Source of the DNA: Haladaptatus sp. R4
GTDB taxonomy: Archaea > Halobacteriota > Halobacteria > Halobacteriales > Haladaptataceae
Length of the DNA stretch: 64,000 nt
Reading direction: 5' to 3'
Assembly (NCBI RefSeq): GCF_001625445.1
Contig: NZ_LWHG01000021.1
Coordinates: forward strand, 62,001-126,000
Shown piece after piece: positions 8,349 to 16,734 of the stretch. Both the position numbers and the translations under genes were made by a program. Each line of letters starts with the position of its first letter. The stretch's first letter is position 1. The notes beneath the pieces are model-generated. The model saw only the letters and a program-made list of their open reading frames with translations. It did no database searches and was not told where the DNA came from.

Positions 8349-8536
8349 GTTCGTCCGATCAATCGTCGTCCCGATGCGTTACGTTTCCGGCGACCGGATC
8401 GTGCCCGAGATCCGCGCCGAACGTGTGTATCAGTCGGATATTCAACTAATAACCGAACTGATACAATAAGTCAACGAATATGACTGTATAGTTTAGATGC
8501 ATTTTTAGTTGGTTGAACGTATTCGTCCGTTTGCAC

Positions 8537-9202
8537 ATGCCTACAACACGACGCAACGTATTGGGCGCAGTCGCAACGCTCGCCGCCGTCGGCGCCGGTG
8601 CAACGCAGGTTATCGGAAAGAACGGACTCCCCATCGAACTCACGCAAGTCGCGTCCGAGGAGGAGTTCGTCGTGTTCGAGAACACGTCGATGGACGACGT
8701 GGACGTCTCCGGTTACGTCGTTGCGTTCGAGTACGGCAACCCGGACACGGACCAGCGAAGGACGCTGCCGGACGACACAGTCATCGGCAACGGCCAGTCG
8801 TTTATCGTCGCAACCGGTGCGAAACGGGTCCCGGAAGCGGACGTGAAGTTCGATTACGAGGGGGAGGTCCTGAACAACGACGACGAGGACGTCGTCGCCC
8901 TGCTCACACCGGACGAATCGACCGTCATCGCCAAGGGAACCGCCAGTTCCGTTTCCGACACGACGACCACTGACGGAAGCGAGTCCGGTGGGGACGACGG
9001 GAGCGACGAGACGACCACGACCGAAACCGAGGACGGTTCGGCCGACGAAACGACCGACGACGGCGGGTCGACCGATACCGAATCCGAGAACAGTGGATCG
9101 TCGAATGACGATACGACCGAGGGAGAATCCGACGACAGCGGCACATCGAACGGGAAAACGACTGAAAAGTCGGGCGACGACGATTCCGACCAGGATTGCT
9201 GA
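8537..9202 (+). CDS. exported lamin-tail-domain-like protein with Asp/Ser/Thr-rich tail
   Basis: A 221-residue protein from ATG 8537; the frame also opens at a TTG at 8513, which is less likely. TTRRNVLGAVATLAAVGAG is a Tat-like signal. Residues about 35-125 resemble a lamin-tail (LTD) beta-sandwich: EEFVVFENTS, VDVSGYVV, the FIVATG strand and DDEDVVALLTPD. The C-terminal 90 residues are almost entirely Asp, Ser, Thr and Glu, a flexible stalk probably glycosylated. No membrane anchor is visible. Function is unknown. Confidence 0.7.
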   Translation: MPTTRRNVLGAVATLAAVGAGATQVIGKNGLPIELTQVASEEEFVVFENTSMDDVDVSGYVVAFEYGNPDTDQRRTLPDDTVIGNGQSFIVATGAKRVPEADVKFDYEGEVLNNDDEDVVALLTPDESTVIAKGTASSVSDTTTTDGSESGGDDGSDETTTTETEDGSADETTDDGGSTDTESENSGSSNDDTTEGESDDSGTSNGKTTEKSGDDDSDQDC

Positions 9203-9268
9203 ATCGCCGGAACAGCCCCACCGTCTCGTGCGGTGATTTTTACTTTCGCTTCGGACCACCGCGTTAAG

Positions 9269-9874
9269 ATGACGCACGGCGAACCGAGTATCATGTCCGA
9301 CCCGACACTCGATGACGAGGCACAGCGACGATTTCCGGTTCCGGAGTACGACGAACTCCCCGACAACCTCCGAGAGCGTATCGACGTGGAGACCGAACGC
9401 GCGGGGTTCACGCCGAACGTGTTCGCGGCGCTCGCGTACAAGCCCTCGCACTTCCGCGCGTTCATGGCCTTCCACGACGCGCTCGTGGACGACACGTCGC
9501 TCGACCGTGAGGAAGTCGAGATGATCGTCGTCGCCGTCTCGGGCGTCAACCACTGTTATTACTGCAACGTGGCGCACGGTGCGCTCGTACGCATCTACGC
9601 GAAACAGCCGACGCTTGCGGACCAGTTGGTGGCGAACTACCGACAGGCGGACGTGAGCGAGAAACGGATGGCGATGCTCGACGTGGCGGTGAAACTAACC
9701 GAACGCCCGACGGAGGTCTCGGAGGACGACCTCCAACGACTGCGCGACGTCGGCTACAGCGACGAGGAAGTCTGGGACATCGGGAGCGTGACGAGCTTTT
9801 TCAACCTCTCGAACCGAATGGCGCTGTTCGCCGACTGGCGACCGAACGACGAGTTCCACACGATGGGCCGGTAG
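9269..9874 (+). CDS. peroxidase-related AhpD/carboxymuconolactone decarboxylase-family protein
   Basis: A 201-residue protein from ATG 9269 (ATG 9293 is an alternative). A T-rich box at about 9236-9244 sits roughly 27 bases upstream of 9269, the spacing expected for a leaderless transcript. The CMD core is visible as VSGVNHCYYCNVAHGA, with the CxxC pair and His of the AhpD-like redox centre (about residues 92-105). The C-terminal FFNLSNRMA is typical of the peroxidase-related subfamily. The reductant and substrate are unknown. Confidence 0.85.
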   Translation: MTHGEPSIMSDPTLDDEAQRRFPVPEYDELPDNLRERIDVETERAGFTPNVFAALAYKPSHFRAFMAFHDALVDDTSLDREEVEMIVVAVSGVNHCYYCNVAHGALVRIYAKQPTLADQLVANYRQADVSEKRMAMLDVAVKLTERPTEVSEDDLQRLRDVGYSDEEVWDIGSVTSFFNLSNRMALFADWRPNDEFHTMGR

Positions 9875-10580: not shown

Positions 10581-11585
10581 TCAACTCGACCGGTTCCGAA
10601 CCGCCGTCGCCGCCACTTCGACGGCGTCTTTCATGCTCTTGGACGACGCGATATCCTCCCCGGCGATGTCGAACGCGGTACCGTGGTCGACGCTCGTCCG
10701 GACGATAGGCAGACCGACGGTCATGTTCACGCCGCTTACCTCTCCGCCCGTGCTGAACCCGAGCATCTTGATCGGGACGTGTCCCTCGTCGTGGTACATC
10801 GAAACGACGCAGTCGAACTCCCCGCGGGCCGCCCGGACGTATATCGTATCGGGTGATTCGGGTCCCTCGACGTCGATTCCATTCTCCCGAGCTGCCTCGA
10901 CTGCCGGTGCGATTTCCTCGGCCTCCTCGTCGCCGAGGAGACCGCCATCGCTCGCGTGCGGATTCAGCCCCGCGACGGCGATGCTCGGGTCGTCGATACC
11001 GAGGTCGAGCAGACCGTCCCGCGTAACCCGAATCGTTTCGAGGACGTTCTCGGTCGTCACGAGGTCACAGGCGTCCCGGAGCGGCACGTGCGTGCTCACG
11101 TGCGTGACGCGAAGGTCGTCCTCGACGAGCATCATCGAGTAATCCGTGACGCCGGTTCGGTCGGCGAGCAATCCCGTGTGACCGGCGTGTTCACTTCCGG
11201 CCATCCGAGTCGCCTGCTTGTTGATAGGTGCCGTGACGACGCCATCGACATCCCCCGCCAGCGCGAGTTCGATGGCTCGTTCGACGTACTCCAAACTCGC
11301 CGCACCGAAGTCCTCGCGGAGCGCGCCCCATTCGTGGTTCGCGACGTTGTCGAGGTCGAGAACGTCGATGGTATTCGGTTCGAAGGCGGCATCACCGACG
11401 TCCGGTATCGACCGGACACCGAGGTCGATAGCACCGTCTGGGATCGCCTCGCGCATCACGTCGGCGTCCCCTACCACGAGAAGGTCCGCATCCGCCCGTG
11501 CCTCGGGGTACGCCTTCGCTATCACTTCCGCGCCGATACCACCGGGGTCCCCCATCGTCAGCGCCAACCGTGGGTTTCCGTCCAT
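10581..11585 (-). CDS. pdxA2: PdxA2-like 4-phospho-threonate/erythronate dehydrogenase
   Basis: A 334-residue protein of the PdxA family. TMGDPGGIGAEV opens the fold; the metal-binding histidines are seen in EHAGHTG, NPHASDGG and YHDEGHVP. PdxA proper makes vitamin B6 in bacteria, but archaea use the PdxS/PdxT route. Next to a DUF1537-type kinase, the better assignment is the PdxA2 subgroup, which oxidises D-threonate 4-phosphate or D-erythronate 4-phosphate with NAD and decarboxylates to dihydroxyacetone phosphate. It is the third gene of a minus-strand operon, 107 bp after the kinase. Confidence 0.85.
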   Translation of the reverse strand: MDGNPRLALTMGDPGGIGAEVIAKAYPEARADADLLVVGDADVMREAIPDGAIDLGVRSIPDVGDAAFEPNTIDVLDLDNVANHEWGALREDFGAASLEYVERAIELALAGDVDGVVTAPINKQATRMAGSEHAGHTGLLADRTGVTDYSMMLVEDDLRVTHVSTHVPLRDACDLVTTENVLETIRVTRDGLLDLGIDDPSIAVAGLNPHASDGGLLGDEEAEEIAPAVEAARENGIDVEGPESPDTIYVRAARGEFDCVVSMYHDEGHVPIKMLGFSTGGEVSGVNMTVGLPIVRTSVDHGTAFDIAGEDIASSKSMKDAVEVAATAVRNRSS

Positions 11586-11692
11586 CGCTCATCGTTTCGC
11601 CGGTGAATCGCTTCACTGTTTTCCCGTCGTCGGATAATCGTTTCCGGCGCTGTGGAGTGGGTCGGAGTCGAACTGATCGTTCAGCGCCCGTT

Positions 11693-12946
11693 TCACATCG
11701 GTACGCGGCGAAGGTGGTCGAGCGCGTCCGAGATGGTACCGTCCTCGCCGAAGGCACCCGCCTTCGTCACGAGCGGTGTCCCGTCGGCGAGACCGCCGCG
11801 AACTTCGCCAACCGGAACGCCGCTGGTGACCTCCTCCCCGCGCAGGGCGATACCACGAGCGTCGAGTTCGCCGAGGACGCCCTTCGTGACGGCACCGCCG
11901 GTGAGAAAGAGACCATCTGGGGCGTGCTCCGTCCAGACCGATTCGGTCGCGGTGGCGAGGGCCTCCGTAACGCGCTCACGAGCCTCGCGGTCACTCACTC
12001 CGGCCTCGGCGGCGGCACCGAGCACCATGTCGACATCGGCCGGGTCGCACGCCGAGGTGAGGACGACTGTTTCCTCGTCAGCCAAACGGTCGGTACACGA
12101 CACGGCCGCGGCGCGAACGGCGGCCTCGACGTCGTGGACGGCCCGCACTGCATCGAGGTGGACGACACGGTCGGCGGGAAGCGCGTCGAGTTGCGCGAGC
12201 GTCCGCTCGTTCACGCTCCCCGAAACGCCGAACGCCGTTCCCGATGGGTTCTCGGCGAGCGAAGTGCGGTCCGCCGTCGGTGTCGCCCGAACGCGAACGT
12301 GTTCGGCGAGGCCGCCGCTCCCGACGAGGAGCACGTTCCCGTTGGCGTCGTCACACCCGCTTGCGATGGCGTCGAGATGAACGTCGTGGACGGCGTCGAA
12401 GGTGACGAGACGCCCATCGTCGAGTGCCGCTGGAACGTCGTTCGTGCCGACCACCTCGATACCCGCGTGAGAGACGTCACTCGCCCCTTGCTGACGGAGG
12501 TGGTCGGGAAGCCGAGGGGAGTGTACCGGACTGTCCGGGTCGTTTCCCGCCTCCGTGTCGGTGACGAGCACTCCCTCGGTGAGATGATACCCGCACGCCG
12601 TAACGCGACCGTTCGACGGGAACGCGGGTGCCACGGCCGCCGCGTCGGCGTCCATCGCGGCCATTGCTGCCTCGATTTCGGCGGCGAGGTTCCCGCGTAA
12701 CGTGGAGTCCACCTTCTTGTAGACGGTGGCGGCGTCGATATCGGAGATGACGGTTGCGACGCGGGAAGCGGCTTCGTTCGGGGCAACGTAGCGGGAGTCG
12801 GTATCCACGACGAGAACCGCGGCGTCGGGCGATTCGAAATCGGGGTCCAGTCGGACGACCGTCTCGAACCCGCGGGCCGCGAAGCCGTGGCCGGTATCGG
12901 TCGCTCCCGTGAGGTCGTCGGCGACGACCAGCGTTCGGTCAGTCAT
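11693..12946 (-). CDS. four-carbon acid sugar kinase family protein (DUF1537, DtnK/OtnK-like)
   Basis: A 417-residue protein starting at ATG 12946, where it overlaps the stop of the upstream gene by eight bases. N-terminal DDLTGATDTG binds the acid-sugar substrate and KKVDSTLRGN follows at about residue 80, both diagnostic of the family. The C-terminal nucleotide-binding loop reads LTGGAVTKG, where bacterial members usually have GGDTA, so an Asp is replaced by Ala. Known members phosphorylate D-threonate, L-threonate or D-erythronate at the 4-position. Context with PdxA2 supports the same pathway here; substrate stereochemistry is open. Confidence 0.85.
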   Translation of the reverse strand: MTDRTLVVADDLTGATDTGHGFAARGFETVVRLDPDFESPDAAVLVVDTDSRYVAPNEAASRVATVISDIDAATVYKKVDSTLRGNLAAEIEAAMAAMDADAAAVAPAFPSNGRVTACGYHLTEGVLVTDTEAGNDPDSPVHSPRLPDHLRQQGASDVSHAGIEVVGTNDVPAALDDGRLVTFDAVHDVHLDAIASGCDDANGNVLLVGSGGLAEHVRVRATPTADRTSLAENPSGTAFGVSGSVNERTLAQLDALPADRVVHLDAVRAVHDVEAAVRAAAVSCTDRLADEETVVLTSACDPADVDMVLGAAAEAGVSDREARERVTEALATATESVWTEHAPDGLFLTGGAVTKGVLGELDARGIALRGEEVTSGVPVGEVRGGLADGTPLVTKAGAFGEDGTISDALDHLRRVPM

Positions 12947-14258
12947 CGAACCCGAAGGCGAAGTCGCCGTCGTCATCGAACGCGAGGGGGCGCAGGTCAC
13001 CCACTCTCGTGTCGTCTCGCTCCCGGAGTTCATCCGCGACGGGTTCGGAGACGTAGAGTTCGTCCGGCTCCAGCGTGTTCCGGATGTAGCCGATACGCAG
13101 GTCTTTCGGGTCGCGGACGCCCGTCATCGAGTACGCCAGCAGGAGCGTCGTTCGATCGCTCGGCGAGACGATGGGGATGTGTGCCCGCGACGGTTCGCCG
13201 CTCGTCACCGTGTTCAGGTAGGTATCCACGAGGTCCAATCGCTCGACGAGGTCTTCGTAAACGAAGTCAGCAAGGCCCACCCCGAGACCGTTACCGTGCG
13301 AAGCGGCGGTGATCGTTCGGACGTAGATGCGCCGAATTTCCGGTGAGTCGGGTTCGTGCTCGTCGAGGAACTGATACCGCCCGAGGACGTTCGTGTCCAT
13401 TCCGGTTCCAGAAACCTCCTTTCCCATCTCGTCCACGATGAGGAGGTCGAGTCGATCGACCGGAAGCCCCGGAAAGAGCTCCTTCGAGCGCTCCAGCAGT
13501 TCGGGTTCCCGGTCGGGAATGTCCCCGACGGGAACGCCCTCGATGTGTGCCGCTCGGTCGCGTGCGTTCTCGACGAGGGCGATGCCGCCGACCACTGGCG
13601 CGTGTTCGAAAATTAGGGCGGCGCGCTCCGCGACGACGGTTCCGAGACCGCGCGTGATGGCGGCGTTATGCATCTCCTCCGCACCCCGTTGCTTTCCGAG
13701 GCCGACGACGCACATCTTGGTCACCCCCGATTCCACCTCCGCGTGGAAGTCGGTGTGGAGTTTCACGCGATTTGTGAGGAGGACGGCGTCCGCGTCGAGC
13801 GCGACCGTCGAAACGGGGACGGGACGACCGGTTTCGTCCTCGGCGACCGATTCCACCGTCATCGCGTCGCGTATCTCGCAACCGAGGCGTTCCTCGGTGA
13901 CGCCGTACTCCGCGAGAACTGACCGTTGACCCTCAGGGGTTCCACCGCCGTGACTTCCCATCGCCGGCATCACGAACGGCTGGTAGCCTCGATCCGCGAG
14001 TTCGGCGACCGCCGCCTCGACGAGTTCGGGCATGTCGTGGATACCACGGCTCCCGACAGTGATTGCGACCTCGGCTCCCGGGTCGAGATCGGAGAGTGCC
14101 GGGATGTCGTCCACCGCCGCGCGCGTCGCGGAGGCCACGTCGTCGATCTGGGGCGGGTCGCGTTCTCGCGTGGCATACGCGACCCGTGGGAGGTCCTCGA
14201 TTTCGACGTCGTTGACGTTCTCGAATTCCGTCGGGCGTGGAACGTCAAGCGTAACCAT
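12939..14258 (-). CDS. LarA-like nickel-dependent racemase/epimerase family protein (DUF2088)
   Basis: A 439-residue protein starting at ATG 14258. MGSHGGGTPEGQ, and later a His, Lys and His in FHAEVESGVTK and EEMH, lie at spacings close to those of the LarA residues that hold the nickel-pincer cofactor (in LarA, Lys184 and His200 are 16 apart; here Lys and His are also 16 apart). The family includes lactate, malate and sugar-acid racemases or epimerases. First gene of the operon with the acid-sugar kinase and PdxA2, so an aldonate epimerase is plausible. No larB, larC or larE is in the window, so cofactor loading cannot be judged. Confidence 0.8.
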   Translation of the reverse strand: MVTLDVPRPTEFENVNDVEIEDLPRVAYATRERDPPQIDDVASATRAAVDDIPALSDLDPGAEVAITVGSRGIHDMPELVEAAVAELADRGYQPFVMPAMGSHGGGTPEGQRSVLAEYGVTEERLGCEIRDAMTVESVAEDETGRPVPVSTVALDADAVLLTNRVKLHTDFHAEVESGVTKMCVVGLGKQRGAEEMHNAAITRGLGTVVAERAALIFEHAPVVGGIALVENARDRAAHIEGVPVGDIPDREPELLERSKELFPGLPVDRLDLLIVDEMGKEVSGTGMDTNVLGRYQFLDEHEPDSPEIRRIYVRTITAASHGNGLGVGLADFVYEDLVERLDLVDTYLNTVTSGEPSRAHIPIVSPSDRTTLLLAYSMTGVRDPKDLRIGYIRNTLEPDELYVSEPVADELRERDDTRVGDLRPLAFDDDGDFAFGFDD

Positions 14259-14603: not shown

Positions 14604-15731
14604 ATGGCCGACTCGTCAAGTGGCCTCAAGACTACGGAGGGGTCGTCCACATCGAACCAGTCTTCGGACGCTAGCGCCGTGTATACGCCGCCGAAACTCA
14701 TGAACAGCCTCCGCGCTCCACTGACCAGAACACGCGAGTGGCTCTTTCTCGTCGAGAATCGGATGCTGATCGCGGTCGGCTTCCTCGCCGTGGTCTTCTT
14801 CATCCTCCTTGCCATCGAATTGCTAACCAGCTTCGACAAGGAGACGTTGCAGCCGTTGTTTTACATCTTCGGAGCGCTGATCGGCGGTAATTTCACGCTC
14901 ATCACGATCGTGATCTCGATCAACCAACTCGTCATCTCACAGCAGCTCGGCGCACCGGGTGATCTCCGCCGACAGATAGAGGAGACGAACAAATATCGGG
15001 AAGCGGTGGAAGAGGAGGTCGATCGTGACGTCGCGCCGGTTACACCCACGGACTTCCTGCAACTCCTGCTCGACCAGACCAAGGCCCAACTCGACACGGT
15101 AAGCGATGAGTTGGATGACGTCTCCGATACCGAAGCACGTGACGACCTCGAACAACTCGTTTCACGTCTACGGACGCATATCGAACACGTCGAAACCCTC
15201 CTGAGCCGGGCCGAAGTCGGGTTGTTCGAAGCCCTGTCGGTCACGCTTCAAACCAACTACTCACAGGAGATATTCGAGATACGGACGCTCATGGACGATC
15301 ATTCCGACCAGTATTCGGACAGGGTGGGGGACGCGCTGAACGACCTGGTGGTTCGACTCGAACAGATCGACGTGGCTCGTCAGTATCTCAAAACCCTGTA
15401 CATCCAGGACGAGTTGGCGAAGATTTCGCGCGTCCTACTCTACACCGGTATCCCCGCGGTGGTGGTCGCCATCATCATGATGCATCAGTTCGCCGCGTCC
15501 AACCAGGCAGTCCTGACGCCGACGGTATTGTCGGCCCTCGTACCGGTGGCGCTGACCATCGGTATCGCCCCACTGAGCGTTCTCTTCGCGTTCGTGTTAC
15601 GGGTCTCGATGGTCTCACAGCGGACCGTCGCCATCACGCCCTTCACCACGCCGAGCCAGGAGGAGAGCATCAGTCCTGATTCGTTAGTCGAGGATACGTC
15701 GGACTCGGATCCCTCAAGCGACGGGCAATAA
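14604..15731 (+). CDS. four-helix membrane protein with coiled-coil central domain, unknown function
   Basis: A 375-residue protein from ATG 14604; the frame is open further upstream but without coding character. Hydrophobic helices at about 50-70 and 85-110, then a charged helical stretch (about 112-275) with coiled-coil-like heptads, then two helices at about 280-300 and 305-335, and an acidic Ser-rich tail. No family recognised. It could be a membrane sensor or scaffold. It is convergent with the ROK kinase gene, 38 bases apart. Confidence 0.7.
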   Translation: MADSSSGLKTTEGSSTSNQSSDASAVYTPPKLMNSLRAPLTRTREWLFLVENRMLIAVGFLAVVFFILLAIELLTSFDKETLQPLFYIFGALIGGNFTLITIVISINQLVISQQLGAPGDLRRQIEETNKYREAVEEEVDRDVAPVTPTDFLQLLLDQTKAQLDTVSDELDDVSDTEARDDLEQLVSRLRTHIEHVETLLSRAEVGLFEALSVTLQTNYSQEIFEIRTLMDDHSDQYSDRVGDALNDLVVRLEQIDVARQYLKTLYIQDELAKISRVLLYTGIPAVVVAIIMMHQFAASNQAVLTPTVLSALVPVALTIGIAPLSVLFAFVLRVSMVSQRTVAITPFTTPSQEESISPDSLVEDTSDSDPSSDGQ

Positions 15732-15769
15732 AATTCGATTTACAGCGTTCACGTCGCGACCACGCGGGG

Positions 15770-16734
15770 TCAGTCGCTGACCTGCTCCGCCACGGGTGCG
15801 CTCTCGTTCGCACCGAAGAACGTCGCCGCCCCGCCGTACAGTTCGATGTCCGCGCCCAAACTCGTGAGCTGGACGACCGGCGGGTCGGCGAGGACGTACT
15901 CGTCCAAGTGGCGGTGGATCCCATCCAAGATCCGGTCGGGGTTTTTGAGCGCGACGACCCGCCGAGCGTGATGATCCCGGGGTTGAACATGTTCGCGATC
16001 GCACCGATACCGGCGGCGTTGTACCGCGCCACGCGGTCGAGGACGTCCCCTGCGAACTCGTCACCGTCGTCGGCCGCCGCGAACACGTCGGGGGCGGAAA
16101 CCTCGTCCATCGAGCGAAGCATCGAGGATCGATCGTCCGTCGCCAGGAGGTGACGAGCGAACTGCGGAATTCCTCGACCCGAGCAGTAGGCCTCCCACGC
16201 ACCCCGAACGCCGGTGCTCGACAAGTCGCCATCCGCGACGATGGGGACGAGTCCGACTTCCGCAGCGTAGCCCTCTTCACCCCGAACAGGCGTGCCGTCG
16301 ATGACGACGCCCGCACCGATTCCCGTTCCGAACGTGACGTGGACGACGGTATCGGATCGGAACCCCGATCCGAAGGTGTCCTCCCCGATTGCGGCCGCCG
16401 TGCAGTCGTTTTCGACGGCCGTCGGAAGACCGAAGGCGTCCTTCATCGCGGCGGCGACCGGAATGTCGTGAATCGTCTCGCCGTCCGCCGTATCGAACTC
16501 GTCGATGACGCCCCGCTCGGCGTCGACGAGTCCGGTCGTCGAAACGGAGACGTGCCGGATCGTTCCGGGCGATTGCGTGCGGAGACGGTCGACGATATCG
16601 ACGAGTTGCGCCGTCAATCGCATCGGGTCCGTCGGTTCGGTCTCGACCGTTACGGGCCCCTCACGCGTGGCGGGTCCGTACCGAATCCGCGTGCTCCCGA
16701 TATCGATGACTGCGACGGAGGATGTAACGCTCAC
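15770..16734 (-). pseudogene. ROK-family sugar kinase, single-base frameshift
   Basis: The N-terminal 250 residues are a normal ROK kinase: an ATP-binding start VIDIGSTRIRYG, ENDCTAAAIGE, GTGIGAGVVIDG and NPGIITLGGS. After LGGS the frame is lost near 15957. The other frame continues as VALKNPDRILDGI and ends at the stop in 15770-15772. The span is 965 bases, one short of a multiple of three, so adding one base restores 321 residues. The broken frame would overlap the convergent gene by 62 bases; the restored one does not. ROK kinases phosphorylate glucose or related hexoses. No Cys-rich ROK zinc motif is seen, which is not rare in archaea. Likely a sequencing error. Confidence 0.8.

Follow-up and report, generated by a model that had tools for sequence, protein, structure and literature searches.

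What does a nickel-dependent isomerase do beside a kinase and a dehydrogenase of acid-sugar metabolism? The question is raised by an operon in a 64,000-nucleotide stretch of the Haladaptatus sp. R4 genome (the window hereafter, positions 62001-126000 of contig C21; the genome comprises 4.9 Mb in 34 contigs), in which a gene resembling that of the lactate racemase LarA is followed by genes for a DUF1537 acid-sugar kinase and a PdxA-like dehydrogenase. The sequence-only reading of this DNA had proposed a candidate archaeal threonate or erythronate pathway, with an epimerase acting as a new step ahead of the kinase. All three genes were found where that reading had placed them and are intact and co-directional on the minus strand, with an overlap of exactly eight bases between the larA-like gene and the kinase gene and a gap of 107 bases between the kinase gene and pdxA. 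The explanation that we favour, with somewhat better than even confidence, is that a C2-epimerase dependent on the nickel-pincer nucleotide (NPN) interconverts D-erythronate and D-threonate, and that the kinase/PdxA2 pair takes both to dihydroxyacetone phosphate.

The larA-like protein matched the NCBIfam model NF052515 ('nickel pincer cofactor-dependent isomerase, group 22') with 479.8 bits (cut-off 400). The Pfam Lar_N model was borderline, at 22.3 bits against a cut-off of 23.3 and with DUF362 scoring the same, and reached 24.2 bits, above its cut-off, in the genome search; membership in the LarA family therefore rests on NF052515, profile-profile alignment and a structure model. Since the group-22 profile found no match among PDB sequences, profile alignment and fold were used to settle the kinship. 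Alignment with two canonical LarAs placed H103, H168, K181 and H197 on the catalytic, cofactor and nickel positions (H108, H174, K184 and H200 in LarA; PMC12611868, PMC11770544), and these four residues, together with R71, are invariant in 64 group-22 proteins. The spacing of 16 between the lysine and the nickel-ligand histidine, already noticed in the sequence-only reading, is the same in both (K181-H197 and K184-H200). An AlphaFold (AF2) model with a mean predicted local distance difference test (pLDDT) score of 94.8 retrieved 19 LarA chains as the sole PDB matches under an E-value of 1e-3, with Z scores of 19.0-21.1 over 304-325 residues, while the next unrelated chain scored 6.8. By family score, residues and modelled fold, the protein thus appears to be a member of the LarA superfamily. 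It shares with the lactate racemase of Lactiplantibacillus plantarum the fold, both catalytic histidines, the NPN lysine, the nickel histidine and their spacing, but it differs in the substrate loop, and structural alignments to solved LarAs gave a root-mean-square deviation (rmsd) of 3-5 A at an identity of about 12-16%. The NCBIfam LarA models take their names from the group numbering of Desguin et al. (PMC7583248). Group 22 is large, its name specifies no substrate, and none of its members is among the proteins assayed in Table 1 of that study.

A protein of this family would need the NPN cofactor, and the absence of its biosynthetic genes had been named in advance as an outcome that would refute the proposal. 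The larB, larC and larE genes are all present in the genome, on contig C11. In a survey of 391 haloarchaeal genomes, 179 of which contain group 22, LarB was present in 177 of those 179 genomes compared with 144 of the 212 without group 22, counts that ignore kinship. Among genomes lacking a canonical LarA, LarB was found in 151 of 153 with group 22 and in 71 of 132 with neither, again ignoring kinship, and it was kept in all 42 genomes that carry the kinase and no canonical LarA. The control genome, Haloferax volcanii, matched the group-22 model NF052515 but had no match to canonical Lar_N. This pattern makes group 22 a possible client of the H. volcanii larB, larC and larE genes, which have been listed as an open annotation issue in a report that names no LarA (PMC8305020); a candidate client enzyme is thereby suggested for them. 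Separately, the 71 of 132 haloarchaea that match neither LarA model and still carry LarB may harbour further LarA-like clients that went undetected.

The gene neighbourhood recurs well beyond the window. Homologues of the window kinase were found in 55 and PdxA homologues in 64 of the 391 genomes, and a group-22 LarA was present in 52 of the 55 kinase genomes as against 127 of the 336 others. Of 61 haloarchaeal kinase loci, each inspected with flanks of about 8 kb (less where the contig ended sooner), 32 (window counted) had a LarA of at least 52% identity within 2.5 kb. Where all three genes occur together, four arrangements were seen: kinase-pdxA-larA (20), divergent larA (7), convergent larA (2) and larA-kinase-pdxA (2), the last being the order in the window and in L183. 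A GntP permease gene was located near 11 of the 32 larA-bearing haloarchaeal kinase loci versus one of the 29 larA-less ones, its family having been checked on one. Among 104 group-22 proteins placed in a tree, the haloarchaeal LarAs that are linked fall into one clade of 32 rows (support 98), of which 28 are linked; one more has kinase/pdxA 7 kb away, and in the unlinked L044 the kinase gene is probably about 18.5 kb away. The remaining linked proteins belong to a Bacillaceae clade (6 of 7), to the pair L102/L110 and to L096, and the supported branches force at least seven changes between linked and unlinked states. The association of larA with kinase/pdxA is well above chance, and local coincidence was rejected, as the trio recurs across loci and branches. 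Several larA-less kinase/pdxA loci (L186, L188-L190, L194, L198, L241) instead carry altronate-dehydratase-like and FAH-like genes (named by eye) and IclR-type regulators, which suggests that the same pair is also the core of another type of acid-sugar cluster.

The proposed pathway is not specific to archaea: the trio was also found in Bacillota, one actinomycete and uncultured bacteria. The most extensive array, all on one strand, is that of Alkalihalobacillus macyae (L092). It begins with a sigma-54-type regulator, the kinase, a DctP/DctQ/DctM TRAP transporter (DctQ named by eye), PdxA and LarA, and continues with an aldehyde dehydrogenase, an iron alcohol dehydrogenase, LarE (367 bits), LarB (295 bits) and LarC. 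The LarC coding region (12684-13916) is split over two reading frames, which match Ni_insertion positions 1-235 and 237-375. LarC is likewise divided between two reading frames, larC1 and larC2, in L. plantarum. In L113 the order kinase-TRAP-PdxA-LarA is followed by a weakly nickel-permease-like protein, which at 24.5 bits missed the NicO cut-off of 27.7 and scored higher with DsbD_2. Three further loci (L070, L089, L094) combine LarE, a PrpR-like regulator, kinase, PdxA and LarA, the neighbours being named by eye; L070 and L094 additionally encode GntP (scored in L070, by eye in L094), giving the order GntP-LarE-regulator-kinase-PdxA-LarA in L070, a Neobacillus locus.

Both enzymes beside LarA resemble those of D-threonate breakdown. 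The window kinase has both DUF1537 domains, SBD_N (173.3 bits, cut-off 25) and NBD_C (85.3 bits, cut-off 28.3); its best NCBIfam model is the D-threonate kinase DtnK (NF047819), with models for 3-oxo-tetronate and 3-oxo-isoapionate kinases also matching, and its best PDB match is 4xfm. PdxA scored 343 bits with Pfam and 350.6 bits with the general PdxA model TIGR00557 (cut-off 290), the sole PdxA-type model that it passed, and its matches to the PdxA2 structures 2hi1 and 6e85 (268 and 259 bits) are stronger than that to E. coli PdxA (167 bits). In the kinase tree, larA-bearing and larA-less loci are clustered yet mixed, so the kinase alone does not reveal which acid is used. The DUF1537 family includes kinases for D-threonate (DtnK) and for D-erythronate (DenK), and one member, STM0162, phosphorylates 4-hydroxy-L-threonine (PMC10971088).

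In the mechanism that we propose, the operon would serve the catabolism of four-carbon sugar acids (tetronates). LarB, LarC and LarE would make the NPN carried by the LarA-like protein, which would abstract the C2 hydride of the free acid and deliver it back on the opposite face. D-erythronate (2R,3R) and D-threonate (2S,3R) differ at C2 alone, and such a hydride shift would interconvert them. The kinase would phosphorylate O4 of one tetronate, most likely D-threonate, and the PdxA2-like dehydrogenase would oxidise C3, with loss of CO2 giving dihydroxyacetone phosphate. With an epimerase present, a single kinase/PdxA2 pair could use both acids, and because DUF1537 kinases exist for both epimers, epimerisation could run in either direction. 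The analysis establishes the gene content, the LarA fold with its cofactor and catalytic residues, the NPN genes in the genome and the recurrent linkage, with cofactor and transporter genes in the bacterial arrays; the four-carbon substrate, its stereochemistry and the direction are predictions of this scheme. That epimerisation precedes phosphorylation we infer from two things: the arrays carry transporters of types that import free acids, and the LarAs characterised in PMC7583248 and PMC11770544 act on unphosphorylated acids.

Several known systems come close to this proposal. A bacterial DUF1537 kinase, DtnK, together with PdxA2 is said, in work by Zhang et al. of 2016 (PNAS E4161), to convert D-threonate to dihydroxyacetone phosphate; the window operon shares with that system the kinase and PdxA2-like families, their adjoining genes and, in related loci, acid-sugar transporters, and differs by adding a LarA-family NPN isomerase and, in some bacteria, the NPN cofactor genes. 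A proton-coupled hydride transfer is how LarA enzymes invert 2-hydroxy acids at C2, and C2-epimerisation of 4-deoxy-threonate and 4-deoxy-erythronate has been measured for other LarA homologues (PMC11770544). The reaction is the predicted one, carried out on the 4-deoxy analogue of the substrate, but these homologues belong to other groups and show it as one of many activities, not as a dedicated pathway step. GntE, the D-gluconate 2-epimerase of groups 19/20 from Thermotoga maritima and Corynebacterium glutamicum (PMC7583248), is likewise an aldonate C2-epimerase in a sugar-acid neighbourhood, but is of a different LarA group, uses a C6 substrate and is not tied to DUF1537/PdxA. Where GntE has E-V after the second catalytic histidine, the window protein has T169-D170-F171 and so lacks the GntE signature. 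Aldonate C2-epimerisation by a LarA homologue has precedents in GntE and in the 4-deoxy activities; what the proposed system would add is its combination with the DUF1537/PdxA route.

A candidate signature of the linked proteins was found at two positions: Asp170, two residues past the second catalytic histidine, and Arg358. The combination occurs in all 37 LarAs linked to kinase or pdxA as against nine of 62 unlinked group-22 proteins, and four of those nine sit within the two linked clades. As shared ancestry accounts for part of this distribution, the signature is a lead for mutagenesis and not proof of substrate.

Several observations weigh against the proposed tetronate epimerase. The kinase reached 244.8 bits with the DtnK model, missing its cut-off of 450, and PdxA 297.3 bits with the model for D-threonate 4-phosphate dehydrogenase PdxA2 (NF002891; cut-off 583). 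The sequence-only proposal is supported in part: the cofactor genes are in the genome, and the conservation of the trio in haloarchaea and bacteria, with NPN genes and acid-sugar-type transporters beside it in Bacillota, fits a C2-epimerase that feeds a tetronate kinase. An adjacent LarA is missing from about half of the kinase/pdxA loci of haloarchaea, group-22 proteins of other bacteria mostly lie away from any kinase, and no transporter or regulator was recognised beside the window operon; the two GntP genes of the genome both lie away from it. The genome's larB, larC and larE do not by themselves point to the larA-like gene, because a second, canonical LarA is encoded outside the window (C21:147669-148175; L001:1429-2658), nearest to malate racemase models at 228 bits and below their cut-off of 500. 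Group 22 has no member with a known activity, and gene context has been misleading for several LarA groups before (PMC7583248).

The sub-threshold kinase and PdxA scores leave some room for the same logic applied to another 2-hydroxy acid, such as L-erythronate/L-threonate or an aldonate with a longer or branched chain, with the kinase and PdxA giving the matching keto-phosphate. DUF1537 members act on several acids (PMC10971088), and the 3-oxo-tetronate and 3-oxo-isoapionate kinase matches fit such a substrate; on the other hand, the window kinase, like the linked kinases of L092, L102 and L096, scores best with the D-threonate kinase family, and the PdxA is among those nearest to D-threonate 4-phosphate dehydrogenases, so that we regard a different acid as unlikely, if deserving of real weight. 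Gene order alone is silent on which step comes first, and 4-phosphoerythronate is a known metabolite (PMC9997740); the isomerase might thus act after the kinase on 4-phospho-erythronate/4-phospho-threonate, possibly clearing 4-phospho-erythronate from a side reaction. This is improbable, as the LarA homologues with reported activities use unphosphorylated 2-hydroxy acids (PMC7583248, PMC11770544) and the TRAP and GntP transporters of the arrays are of types that import free acids. The distance of group 22 from characterised LarAs (an empty PDB sequence search, a borderline Lar_N score, an rmsd of 3-5 A) would also accommodate another NPN reaction in the same acid-sugar pathway, for instance a one-way oxidation or reduction or some other rearrangement; both catalytic histidines are nevertheless aligned and invariant in the 64 proteins, unlike in single-histidine LarAs (PMC12611868), and we hold out little prospect for it.

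A role in vitamin B6 synthesis or salvage, with the kinase rescuing 4-hydroxy-threonine and PdxA making the B6 precursor, would suit the PdxA name and the activity of STM0162, but the genome has no match to PdxJ and does contain PdxS, which makes a B6 function of this PdxA unlikely; LarA would moreover have no part in it, and related arrays carry GntP/TRAP-type transporters, so this role was set aside as very improbable. That larA neighbours the pair without any functional tie, as the many bacterial group-22 genes located elsewhere might suggest, is scarcely credible given the separate branches, the four arrangements, the overlap with the kinase gene and the occurrence in both archaea and bacteria.

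For the favoured tetronate epimerase, a broader claim can be put forward at even confidence: group-22 LarAs with Asp170 and Arg358 would be nickel-pincer 2-epimerases dedicated to tetronates (D-erythronate to D-threonate), common to haloarchaea and bacteria and in some bacteria part of one transferable unit with transport and the whole NPN pathway. Such a step in C4 acid-sugar catabolism is not described in the literature searched, and nothing relevant was found that joins LarA with DUF1537, threonate or PdxA, in a search that did not extend to the neighbour tables in the supplement of PMC7583248. If correct, the assignment would give four-carbon acid-sugar metabolism a nickel-dependent step, and the substrate prediction, the residue signature and the self-contained bacterial arrays make it directly testable in laboratory strains.

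Table 1 Features of the larA-kinase-pdxA operon, in window positions.
Feature	Position	Strand	Remarks
larA-like gene, 439 amino acids	14258 (ATG) to 12939 (TGA)	-	NPN-dependent isomerase group 22; predicted tetronate C2-epimerase
DUF1537 acid-sugar kinase gene, DtnK-like, 417 amino acids	12946 (ATG) to 11693 (TGA)	-	SBD_N + NBD_C
pdxA, PdxA2-like, 334 amino acids	11585 (ATG) to 10581 (TGA)	-	Predicted 4-phospho-threonate oxidative decarboxylase
Overlap of larA stop and kinase start, 8 bases	12939..12946	-	ATGACTGA
His103 codon	13950..13952	-	Aligns with catalytic His108 of LarA; invariant in 64 group-22 proteins
His168 codon	13755..13757	-	Aligns with second catalytic His174 of LarA
Asp170 codon	13749..13751	-	Candidate substrate-recognition residue, loop after His168; Asp in 37/37 kinase/pdxA-linked LarAs
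Lys181 codon	13716..13718	-	Aligns with NPN-binding Lys184 of LarA
His197 codon	13668..13670	-	Aligns with nickel ligand His200 of LarA
Arg358 codon	13185..13187	-	Candidate substrate-recognition residue, C-terminal domain

With the window operon and L183 considered together, the nearest relatives of all three genes come from another haloarchaeal family (70-75% identity for LarA and PdxA, 64% for the kinase), and neither the kinase nor pdxA was found in any other sampled genome of the organism's own family. Together, these comparisons suggest that the operon was acquired horizontally. Upstream of it, a gene for a ROK-family kinase or regulator (window 15670-16734, minus strand) appears frameshifted near 15950, similarity being lost past ITLGG and the C-terminal part resuming in another frame. 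Finally, a plasmid of Haladaptatus halobius (L049:7001-8248 and 8352-9641) carries two different group-22 LarA genes in tandem, with no kinase/pdxA nearby.

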